The position numbers and the translations under genes were made by a program. DNA of 64,000 nt from Ilyomonas limi. Its GTDB lineage: Bacteria; Bacteroidota; Bacteroidia; Chitinophagales; Chitinophagaceae. The DNA is taken from the NCBI RefSeq assembly GCF_005233845.1, contig NZ_SZQL01000023.1, forward strand, positions 1 to 64,000. Direction: 5' to 3'. How positions within the stretch are numbered: the stretch's first letter is position 1; each line of letters begins with the position of its first letter. The notes beneath the pieces are model-generated. The model was given only the letters and a program-made list of their open reading frames with translations, ran no database searches and was not told where the DNA came from. Positions 61,144 through 64,000 of this stretch are shown piece by piece.

Positions 61144-61767
61144 TTACTTTTTTCGCCCTACAAATCTGATAACAGCGCCTTGTCCATTGTGGTAAAGTCC
61201 TTCATGGAGATGTATTACCGTTTCTTTCAACTCTGCCATGTCATAGTTGTCAAAGTCTGTCTCGATTTCATCCACCGAAAATAAAGAACCAATATCTTTA
61301 GGTCCGCCCACTTTTTCATTCTTTGCTAAATAGTTCAGGTGGCTTTTACTGAACGCTTCTAAAATAATTGTTCCGCCTTTACGCAAATAGTTGTTGAGGG
61401 TTTTGTGTAAATATGATTTGACATTTGCCGGAAAGTGTGCATAAATTAAGGCGATTGCATCAAATTGTTCCTCCTTATAGTTGAGCGTTTGCAATTCTCC
61501 AATTCTATAGTCAATAGTCACGTTGTTTGTTTCGGCAAGTCGCCTGGCTTTCTTTTGTCCTTCACTGCTTATGTCAAACGCAAAAACTGTCCAGCCAAGT
61601 GTAGCAGCAAATACAGCATTGCGCCCTTCCCCTTCTGCCGGAAAAAGTATAGTGCCAACATTTAATTTTTCTAATTGTTCTTTCAAATAATTGTTAGGTT
61701 TTTCGCCGTATGCAAATCCGTTATTGGCATATCGTTGGTTCCATTTGTCTATCCAGTTGTCTGCCAT
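61144..61767 (-). CDS. Class I SAM-dependent methyltransferase (TehB/thiopurine-like)
   Basis: A 207-residue enzyme. [24 protein letters not shown] at the start is the pattern of small TehB-/TPMT-like methylases; motif I is [40 protein letters not shown], followed by [40 protein letters not shown]. Such enzymes may detoxify metalloid or thiol compounds; the substrate is unknown. The gene lies in the accessory island, on the same strand as the other island genes, and upstream DNA (61780-61800) contains GTTAGCGGTTCG, partly like the right halves of the cassette sites. Confidence 0.85.
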
Positions 61768-61954
61768 AATTTAAATACCTTGTTAGCGGTTCGTTGTTTT
61801 AGTTATTGGAAGTGTTGAATTGATTATTACATTTTACTCAGTCCTCAATTGCTTTAATACTAAATGCCCCGTAACAGCACCTCACTTAAGCAAGGGGTTT
61901 TGTGTCTCATTATAACCGGAAATTTTTTGCTGTGGTATATGTAAGTAGTCATAA
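61768..61954. other. Spacer between methyltransferase and cassette-like site
   Basis: About 190 bases. It includes TTAGCGGTTCG (about 61783-61793), similar to part of the right half-sites, and a GCCCCGTAACAG...AAGCAAGGGG stretch (61867-61900) with a weak CCCC/GGGG pairing. No gene is seen. Confidence 0.35.
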
Positions 61955-62140
61955 TTAAGCATAACGTTTCGCGTAGTGGCGATGATGGGGCATTTGAAAT
62001 ACGTCTTGACTAACATTTGCATAAATGTCCAATAAAATTACAAATATTGAGTTTACAACTGTAAGCCCCACTATTGCCAATACGATGTAATGCGCTGCTT
62101 TTATTGTCTTATTGACGTCATCAGTTTGTGGGTCAACCAT
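61955..62140 (-). CDS. Doubtful 61-residue membrane-like ORF built from a palindromic site
   Basis: An open frame of 61 codons with one hydrophobic stretch (HYIVLAIVGLTVVNSIFVILLDIY). The frame spans most of the cassette-like site at 61961-62083: the hydrophobic part is encoded by the left half-site and loop, and the C-terminal MPHHRHYAKRYA by the right half-site. It begins 21 bases past the VOC gene's stop codon. The product may be accidental, or the site may be an evolved 3' end of a small gene. Confidence 0.3.
   Translation of the reverse strand: MVDPQTDDVNKTIKAAHYIVLAIVGLTVVNSIFVILLDIYANVSQDVFQMPHHRHYAKRYA
61961..62083 (-). repeat. attC-like palindromic site (copy 2)
   Basis: Arms 61973-61990 and 62066-62083 are imperfect 18-base inverted repeats (14 of 18 match; GTnnTGGC and TGGGG shared) around a 75-base loop. 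The outer edge (61961-61966) is ATAACG, followed by TTCG. The layout and spacing match the copy at 62677-62808 (72-base loop). It lies downstream of the VOC gene, as cassette recombination sites do. Confidence 0.6.
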
Positions 62141-62161
62141 TTTTTATACAAAGTTTCTAAG

Positions 62162-62641
62162 TCAAGGGTTTTCTAAAATATCTGTCGCTGTTTGGTTACC
62201 GAGTTGTTCAGCTAATCCGATAAGAAGTCCTTCCGTCCCACGAATGTAGCAAAGCCTATAAATGTTCTCATAATTAACCACTTCGCCAACGACTTCAGCA
62301 CCATGCTTCGTAAGTCTGGATAGCAATTCATCAAGATCGTCAACCCTAAACATGATACGGAGATAGCCGAGAGAATTCACTGGAGCAGTCCTGTGGTCTG
62401 CTATTGTATGTGGGGTGAGAAACCGTGAAAGTTCAAGTCGGCTGTGCCCGTCTGGAGTAACCATCATTGCAACCTCTACCGACTGATTTCCAAGTCCGGT
62501 TATTCGTCCTGCCCATTCACCTTCAACCATCGTTCGTCCTTCAAGTGTCAGTCCTATTTCTGTGAAAAAAGAGATGGCATTGTCGAGGGATTCTACAACG
62601 ATACCGACATTGTTCATTTCCGTTAATTTACTTTTAGCCAT
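62162..62641 (-). CDS. VOC-superfamily (glyoxalase/bleomycin-resistance-like) protein
   Basis: Two beta-alpha-beta-beta-beta modules are visible: NNVGIVVESLDNAISFFTEIGLTLEGR...SRLELSRFLTP and YLRIMFRVDDLDELLSRLTKHGAEVVGEVVNYENIYRLCYIRGTEGLLIGLAEQLG. The length of 159 fits single-chain VOC proteins that bind metal or drugs. No substrate can be named. It sits between two palindromic sites, in the same direction as the island's methyltransferase gene, in the manner of a one-gene cassette. Confidence 0.85.
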   Translation of the reverse strand: MAKSKLTEMNNVGIVVESLDNAISFFTEIGLTLEGRTMVEGEWAGRITGLGNQSVEVAMMVTPDGHSRLELSRFLTPHTIADHRTAPVNSLGYLRIMFRVDDLDELLSRLTKHGAEVVGEVVNYENIYRLCYIRGTEGLLIGLAEQLGNQTATDILENP

Positions 62642-62676
62642 TATCTTTTGTTAGGTTTTTCGGTCTTAAGTTGTAT

Positions 62677-62808
62677 ATAACGGTTCGGGCTTGGCGAAGG
62701 CAGGGAAATAGAATTACAACTGCCGGCGCTTGCTCTGTTGTTGAATAAAGATATAAAGTTTAGCACATTTTCATCAGCCCTGCTTTTGCCAAGCCATGTG
62801 TTGGTAGC
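62677..62808 (-). repeat. attC-like palindromic site (copy 1)
   Basis: Arms 62688-62705 and 62778-62795 (GGCTTGGCGAAGGCAGGG and near-complement) pair at 16 of 18 positions, the two others being G-T wobbles, around a 72-base loop. Outer edges are ATAACGGTTCG on one side and ATGTGTTGGTAG on the other. It lies upstream of the VOC gene and downstream of the gene cut by the IS982 element. Confidence 0.65.
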
Positions 62809-62903
62809 AGTGATGCTTGTGTCATATATTGTACCTGAAGCAGGTCGTTACCACTTGCTAACAAAAGTAAGGCACAAAAGCCCGTTTCAATTTTGTAATT
62901 AAC
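62809..62903. other. Remnant 3' end of the gene split by the IS982-type element
   Basis: Removing the IS and one copy of the TAATTA target duplication makes the minus-strand frame from 63834 continue here without a stop as far as a TAA at 62760-62762, inside the cassette-like site. So this piece, and part of the site, was probably the 3' end of that gene. Confidence 0.5.
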
Positions 62904-63829
62904 TCAAGTTGTGAGTTAGATAAAAGGAGCAGAGCATGGGATAAGGAATAATTTTGAGTTACCACACTTAAAATTATGTACCGATGCTCTGCGAGGATAA
63001 AATTATAGCTCTTTACTGTATAGTAGATGATATTTTAAATGGAATTGGGCACCATGAAGACTGCCGAAGAACAGTAAGTGATAGTGAAGTAATAACAACA
63101 GCACTGGTATCGGCACTTTACTTTGGCGGTCATCAGGATCATGCAAGACAATTTATGAGGATGACCAGACTTATTCCTGCCATGCTGGATAAAAGTCAGT
63201 TTAACCGACGGCTGCATGCACTATCTGAGCTGCTCTTTGATATGTTCTATCAGATTGGTCAGCAACTGAAAGCCGCAGCAGGTGCTTCGGAATACGTAGT
63301 TGATTCTTTGCCGGTGCCGGTTTGTGATAACATCCGCATCAGCCGTTCAAAGATTGTCAAAGGAAAACAGTGGAGAGGAAAGCAGGCAAGCACCAGAAGA
63401 TACTTTTATGGTATTAAAGTGCAGGTACTGACCAGCGTACAGAACGGTATTCCGGTTGAGTTCTGCTTTGTTCCCGGCAGTGAAAGTGATGTGCAGGCAC
63501 TTAAGAAGCTGCCCTTGACAGTAGCAGCACAAAGTAAGGTATATGCAGATGCAGCTTACACTGATTATACTATGGAAGATAATATAAAAGAATCAGAAGG
63601 TATAGAACTGATGATGCAACGCAGATGCAATTCCAAAGAAAGGATGAGCCATGGATCAGATTCCTCAAAGAACAGATGAGAAAAAGAATTGAAACCACCT
63701 TCAGCGAAATCAACGCCTTGTTCCTCAGAAATATTCATGCCGTCACCTTCAAAGGCTTCCTTATTAAACTCACCCTCTTTCTCCTCGCCTTTACTCTAAA
63801 TAAACTCTCTTGACTAACTCACAACTTGA
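62904..63829 (+). mobile_element. IS982-family-like insertion sequence
   Basis: Terminal inverted repeats of 16 bases, TCAAGTTGTGAGTTAG (62904-62919) and complement (63814-63829), bound the element. TAATTA occurs on both sides (62896-62901 and 63833-63838) and may be the target duplication, with one to three ambiguous bases at each edge. The length of about 926 bases fits IS982-type elements. It holds a frameshifted transposase gene. Confidence 0.85.
62984..63813 (+). pseudogene. IS982-type transposase, frameshifted
   Basis: The first part (231 codons) has the DDE pattern YVVDSLPVPVCDNIRISRSK and KVYADAAYTDYTMEDNI. The last part (to 63813) has RKRIETTFSEINALFLRNIHAVTFKGFLIKLTLFLLAF, including the expected final glutamate. 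The two lie in different frames; joining them near 63645 (CCAAAGAAAGG), where one base appears to be missing, restores a normal family end (NSK-KDEPWIRFLKEQ). IS982 elements do not usually rely on programmed frameshifting, so the gene is likely inactive. Confidence 0.8.
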
Positions 63830-63831
63830 AT

Positions 63832-64000
63832 TTAATTATGCAACTCTTTGCACTCCTGCTCCAATATCTTATCGATGATTTCTGGCGGAGCAGTCCATTT
63901 TGAAATTGTTCTGTCTGTGAGTATCGGCAGAGCAGAACTGTAACCGCCAATCTCGCCAGTTGTCATACCGACGATTAGTAATCCTATTTTATAATGCCTG
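63832..64000 (-). CDS. 3' part of an unknown gene, truncated by the IS and by the window edge
   Basis: The minus-strand frame entering from the window edge gives about 55 residues (GLLIVGMTTGEIGGYSSALPILTDRTISKWTAPPEIIDKILEQECKELHN) ending TAA at 63832-63834. The last base of this stop comes from the IS side of the junction. The original frame without the IS would continue beyond (TAC) to a TAA at 62760-62762. No family is recognised from this piece. Confidence 0.5.
   Translation of the reverse strand, partial: RHYKIGLLIVGMTTGEIGGYSSALPILTDRTISKWTAPPEIIDKILEQECKELHN

Follow-up and report, generated by a model that had tools for sequence, protein, structure and literature searches.

Towards one end of the 64,000-nucleotide stretch of Ilyomonas limi DNA analysed here (the window, C16:1-64000, on a contig that continues 4.4 kb further), two hairpin-like elements of similar architecture flank a single small gene. 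A first-pass annotation had read these elements as attC-like sites of a cassette-like recombination system in Bacteroidota. This raises the question of whether the sites are part of such a system and, if so, which enzyme might act on them and how the system relates to integrons.

Sites and genes in the window and beyond

Both sites were recovered at the positions first proposed, and a covariance model (R1), trained on six sites of this contig with both window sites included, matched the two on the + strand, at 61959..62094 for site 1 (47.1 bits) and at 62675..62807 for site 2 (65.2 bits, with a predicted fold). The shared ATAACG edge, TTCG, GGCGA and run of G are present in the sequence as described. 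The proposed geometry, with 18-base imperfect arms and loops of 75 and 72 bases, holds for site 2, in which 62688-62705 and 62778-62795 form 18 contiguous pairs around a 72-base loop with zero bulged bases in both the fold and the covariance match, but needs revision for site 1, whose arms (61973-61991 and 62065-62083) span 19 aligned positions with two mismatches and enclose a 73-base loop. A VOC/glyoxalase-family gene does lie between the sites (62162..62641, minus strand, 159 aa; PF13669 1.4e-9, PF00903 7.9e-8). The orientation has to be corrected, as the strand first used to describe the sites is antisense to the cassette genes: the + strand at both sites is the bottom strand relative to the genes.

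At this end the array finishes with a SAM methyltransferase-like gene (61144..61767, minus strand, 207 aa; PF13649 2.2e-10), which lies downstream of site 1 at its GTT end. On the other side, positions 62808..62900 (no strand assigned), between site 2 and an insertion sequence, are probably the leftover of an interrupted cassette, judging from their sequence. The 0.93-kb insertion sequence that interrupts the array (62901..63832, + strand) has 26-base imperfect terminal inverted repeats and a DDE transposase (PF13612 7.9e-15) split by a frameshift into 62984-63679 and 63625-63813; beyond it lies the 3′ portion (63832..64000, minus strand) of the next cassette gene, which encodes a nucleoside/CMP deaminase (PF00383 1.4e-24) and extends to C16:64278. 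With the ends of the VOC unit mismatched (start GTTATATACA, end GCGCATTAC) and the next unit interrupted, the stretch of array inside the window looks worn. Lone core-like stretches, in gene orientation CCGCTAACAAGG and ACCTAACAAAAG, also sit just 5′ of the methyltransferase and VOC start codons (61775-61795 and 62645-62662) and are possibly remnants of lost sites.

Taken singly, the two window sites fold unremarkably on the + strand (z -2.75 and -1.72), and single-sequence folds alone provide no significant evidence. In an alignment of the six C16 sites, 82% of the arm cells are paired, versus 74% in shuffles and 30-50% in slid-arm controls, with double changes at 9 arm pairs. The sixth training site, E7, is partly wrong, in that its stem is right and its outer 3′ end resembles the left end of an IS110-type element, a flaw visible from contig-end overlaps. 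An Rfam search of the sites returned no relevant family. A consensus pattern search of the genome (L002, L003) yielded only chance matches inside genes because the sites vary, and the covariance model was used instead.

The first-pass annotation had suggested a covariance search of this genome and its relatives, and that search returned many further copies. On the window's own contig, the element recurs at C16:64394, 65393 (a weak match), 65918, 66731-66932 and 68008, always on the + strand, and the genes between these later sites, all on the minus strand, are the deaminase, an HTH and DUF2975 pair, a glyoxalase, a PIN-domain gene with a small partner, and an alpha/beta hydrolase. Across the genome, R1 identified 38 sites at E<=0.004 on 15 contigs, 32 of them outside the training set. 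Many of these contigs are short or carry sites at their ends, the pattern that breakage of the assembly at a repetitive array would produce. The intervals between sites hold mostly single genes, and the expected alternation in one polarity was borne out, the longest ORF being antisense to the site strand in 29/32 intervals (one exception is an insertion sequence transposase). Measured from core to core, the sites are of two size classes, about 117-123 bases and about 179-186 bases, and both are often present in a single array. Different genera share near-identical sites (up to 92% over 133 bases) whose flanks are unrelated, and solitary sites dot chromosomes (G022, G023, G005, and C1:426362 and C2:85361 in the I. 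limi genome itself), in some genomes with no detected recombinase. A check for matching cassette starts at isolated sites that belong to no array (C1, C2, G022, G023 and others) was positive only for L072, and we do not claim these sites as intact single cassettes.

Cassette ends and strand folding

Cassettes follow a common layout, with a GTT-N7 start and a reverse-complementary N7-AAC end. These ends match at 6/7 or more of the bases after GTT in 13/24 adjacent site pairs versus 2.7% of all pairs, and the two flanks of one site agree at a mean of only 3/7 (model-defined sites). Cassettes combining a hairpin with 7/7 matched ends numbered 37 in this and related genomes, versus 1 in reversed sequence. 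On contig C20, nine consecutive cassettes, read by eye, have matching ends, for instance GTTATGTGCC/GGCACATAAC, GTTGTGCGTA/TACGCACAAC and GTTACCTGCC/GGCAGGTAAC (the first of the nine starts with GTA). Many array ends are mismatched, those of the VOC unit among them; the PIN cassette just beyond the window (C16 66.0-66.7 kb) is better preserved, with ends matched at 6/7 bases after GTT, or 9/9 including GTT when aligned by eye. In integrons, matching ends show that cassettes are circular units that rebuild their site, and the matched ends read from these sequences are that hallmark of an integron cassette. The first-pass annotation had noted that the GTTRRRY/RYYYAAC core is matched only in part; 0/37 well-matched cassette starts fit GTTRRRY, and only GTT/AAC is conserved.

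In 63/79 sites defined from cassette ends alone, independently of the covariance model, the better fold is that of the bottom strand, which is antisense to the genes (p = 9e-8, mean 2.5 kcal/mol). Among model-defined sites the bottom strand is better in 54/69, with 176 versus 72 G.T pairs, counts that are partly circular as R1 was built on that strand. Because this strand folds best, it probably acts, in folded form, as the substrate, as in integrons, and because the bottom strand of site 2 folds better with no bulged base, the choice of strand could rest on wobble pairs.

The array-adjacent recombinase and the proposed insertion junction

The first-pass annotation described the system as having no visible integrase and raised the possibility of an unlinked recombinase. 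The window's contig indeed carries none, but a 382-aa tyrosine recombinase lies on C20 directly before the first of the nine cassettes; hence a recombinase exists as supposed, and it is linked to such arrays, the window being on another contig. A second copy stands at the very start of C3. A third, C33:9227-9910 (L054:8790-10114), with 73% DNA identity to the C3 copy, is decayed by several stop codons and lies beside three sites; it is probably a third, dead platform in this genome.

All R-K-HxxR-H-Y catalytic residues are conserved in the recombinase (PF00589 2.6e-37). Its best NCBIfam match is the XerA-like family NF040815 (212 bits, cut-off 220), and it scores 171 bits (range 170-179) against the integron integrase model TIGR02249, under the cut-off of 265, with profile positions from about 180 to 240 unmatched. 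The spacing from KG..DR to LRH is 60-65 residues in 12 array-linked recombinases and 64-68 in host Xer, versus 102 in the 5 IntI measured (of 6), so that the IntI-specific insertion, the I2 region of about 40 residues, is absent. In a tree of 94 rows, the IntI rows and one Planctomycete form a clade with 100/100 support that includes no array-linked recombinase, and host Xer proteins occupy a branch separate from the recombinase. The array-linked recombinases form no exclusive clade; relatives from Bacteroidota are interspersed among them, and many of these relatives come from contigs too short for an array to be visible. A structure model of middling confidence (pLDDT 76.5, pTM 0.55) gave fold matches to Xer-type structures, which we treat as only supportive. 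Residues 12-65 of the L052 recombinase are predicted to form a small N-terminal domain (strand-strand-helix-strand-strand-helix) outside the regions matched by the Xer and IntI models. The next closest plasmid relatives are TnpF-like tyrosine recombinases of Acinetobacter plasmids (H5-H25), 48% over the catalytic part, and these matches do not include the N-terminal part.

The link between recombinase and arrays extends across the class. Around related recombinases at 78 loci, 36 cassette calls fell downstream (434 kb searched) versus 1 upstream (531 kb), in genera including Aquiflexum, Algoriphagus, Seonamhaeicola, Winogradskyella and Algibacter. An exclusively downstream placement was ruled out by upstream arrays in other genera: loci added later comprise downstream (L217, L218, L221) and upstream arrays (L213, L214, L216, L220), and by the model's strand calls these later arrays always point away from the recombinase. 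Recombinase relatives in Sphingobium, Mesorhizobium and similar genera had no cassettes at their loci. The comparison sample consisted of species representatives and two plasmids. Within it, sites at E<=1e-4 occur in 86/247 class genomes, and the search for a co-occurring tyrosine recombinase that the annotation had proposed succeeded, with 44 of the 247 genomes carrying both (Fisher p = 1.3e-5; p = 0.005 among 61 nearer relatives) and the enzyme directly adjoining arrays. Fifteen of these 61 relatives have sites at E<=0.01 and no recombinase at E<=1e-60; as some sites are also solitary, cassettes may be moved by other enzymes as well or persist as relics.

Aligned by eye, an attI-like motif lies 3′ of the recombinase stop codon, just before the first GTT, reading GCGTATATTTnnGA|GTT in the window's own family and taking the form of a palindrome such as TAAACGCAATTGCGTTTATCCAATT|GTT in Flavobacteriaceae. 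Gene content between sites was predicted to vary, and two similar Chryseobacterium plasmids (NZ_CP094530 and NZ_CP041688) differ exactly from this junction onward. Their identity (86% over 4.5 kb, 90% over 3.2 kb) spans the recombinase and the attI-like region up to ATAAACAA|GTT, beyond which one plasmid has a VOC gene and an IS91-type element, and the other a Crp/Fnr regulator, RidA, a metallophosphoesterase, IS110 and a group II intron. This second plasmid also carries, at three positions, a mini-cassette that has no ORF (GTTGGGAAAAATCG...CGATTTTTCCCAAC plus site). The plasmid junction, as a comparison of sequences, is the nearest view of insertion that these data offer. Between Seonamhaeicola and Winogradskyella, 6.7 of 8 kb align upstream and only 1.1 of 6 kb downstream.

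Other mobile elements are found within these arrays. A group II intron reverse transcriptase lies inside the cassette array of NZ_CP041688 (L212:15750-17066), recalling the group IIC-attC introns of integrons. IS110-type elements seem to lie inside attC-like sites, just past the AAC core, at L052:13874-14007 (the C20 end), L004:8200-8377 (the C16 end) and L212:13243-14480, with junctions CTGGTAACATATTC|IS on the plasmid and TACCTACAACAAGAGTATC|CTATG on C20; they resemble the IS1111-attC elements of integrons. Contig ends are near-identical, which suggests that IS110-type copies broke the assembly.

Relation to integrons and competing explanations

Taken together, the further copies, the array and its polarity, the matched ends, the adjacent recombinase and the genes that vary from a fixed junction, all read directly from the DNA, support the cassette-like recombination system first suspected. 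We consider it highly probable (roughly 0.86) that these sites correspond to attC in an integron-like cassette system with an array-adjacent recombinase. From the same features we infer recombination activity, circular intermediates, a single-stranded substrate and strand choice by wobble pairs. A cassette would consist mostly of one small gene and a hairpin site, and in the free circular form its GTT-N7 start would meet its N7-AAC end, completing the site. The array-adjacent tyrosine recombinase would pair the attI-like DNA beside its own gene with the folded cassette site and insert cassettes there by strand exchange at GTT, and might excise or shuffle them by cleavage at GTT. The folded bottom strand would fix cassette orientation, as in integrons, and its selection may depend largely on G.T wobble pairs, which become A.C mismatches on the opposite strand.

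We call the system integron-like because the system-level features of integrons that can be tested from sequence are all present. Both have one-direction arrays of mostly single small genes, each followed by an imperfect palindrome, a GTT cut-site triplet with a complementary AAC, cassette starts complementary to their own site, variable cassettes behind a fixed platform, and a bottom strand that folds best. Integrons have attI beside the integrase; here, an attI-like site would play that part, with cassettes beginning at its GTT. Cassette genes are of the usual integron kinds, namely glyoxalase, PIN toxin-antitoxin, methylase and hypothetical. Unlike in integrons, the recombinase has no IntI-specific insertion, lies outside the IntI clade, carries an extra N-terminal domain and is often co-directional with its cassettes, and the cores are roughly GTT-R-N-N-N-G-Y-M rather than GTTRRRY, with matching over 10 bases. 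Profile score, insertion, clade and core sequence thus set the system apart from IntI integrons, and it is a distinct variant.

A conventional integron remnant (CALIN), in which ordinary attC cassettes with degenerate cores have lost their IntI, would share the general architecture and the absence of an integrase from the window's contig; CALINs are common in bacteria (PMC9668308), and true IntI exists elsewhere in the phylum (84/296 genomes). Among the matches listed, however, G054 alone in this class has IntI, none scored above the cut-off in the I. limi genome, and R1 had no match across 20 IntI loci and their flanks of about 1.5 kb. Since none of the 37 cassette starts fits the canonical core, the sites are not canonical attC, and a recombinase of a different lineage adjoins arrays and an attI-like region elsewhere in this genome and in relatives, we regard such a remnant as very unlikely. 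In IntegronFinder papers, integrons are nearly absent from Bacteroidetes proper: the output of IntegronFinder 2.0 for Bacteroidetes was limited to In0 elements plus a single complete integron, from Salinibacter (PMC9024848). Taxon-specific attC models left out Bacteroidetes (PMC8352920).

That host XerC/D recombine the sites, with the adjacent recombinase a bystander, is highly improbable. The recombinase does resemble Xer proteins, with XerA/XerC/XerD as its best sequence and fold matches (NF040815, 4A8E, 5HXY) and the same insertion-free spacing, and folded phage DNA can serve as an Xer substrate (PMC4792948). In CTXphi integration, XerC/D, which lack I2, use a folded single-stranded site with no extrahelical bases (PMC4792948), but CTXphi is a phage that has no integrase of its own and no cassette array. 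Against host XerC/D, the recombinase lies close beside arrays in many genera and on plasmids, and these arrays point away from it; recombinase and sites also co-occur across the class, and host Xer form a separate branch. Unlike Xer, the recombinase is array-linked, partly plasmid-borne and equipped with an extra N-terminal domain, and has a C-terminal SPLD motif shared with IntI. We find it scarcely credible that the hairpins are repeats unrelated to cassette movement, such as terminators, REP-like or MITE repeats, or RNA structures. They are palindromic, intergenic and near-identical across genera, but their matched ends belong to the gene unit (13/24 adjacent pairs) rather than to the site (mean 3/7), which neither terminators nor MITEs predict, and no Rfam family fits. 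Site length classes, fixed polarity and recombinase adjacency are ill-suited to terminators, and the end-matching statistic and the plasmid junctions contradict the repeat explanation as a whole.

Within the integron-like reading, we moderately favor a second kind of integron in Bacteroidota, whose XerA-like integrase never gained I2 and whose strand choice rests on wobble pairs, either as a survivor from before IntI or as an independent invention. A literature search found no description of this system, with subscription papers and preprints outside its scope. The I2 domain is held to be necessary for integron recombination, I2 reads the extrahelical bases on which integrons depend for bottom-strand choice, and Escudero et al. 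describe the origin of I2 and attC sites as a chicken-and-egg problem (PMC4792948). A widespread, apparently mobile, I2-less cassette system with attC-like hairpins would make this question directly testable. If this is true, tools based on IntI domains and canonical attC sites miss much of the cassette pool of Bacteroidota, one of the largest bacterial phyla, given that 86/247 class genomes carry such sites.
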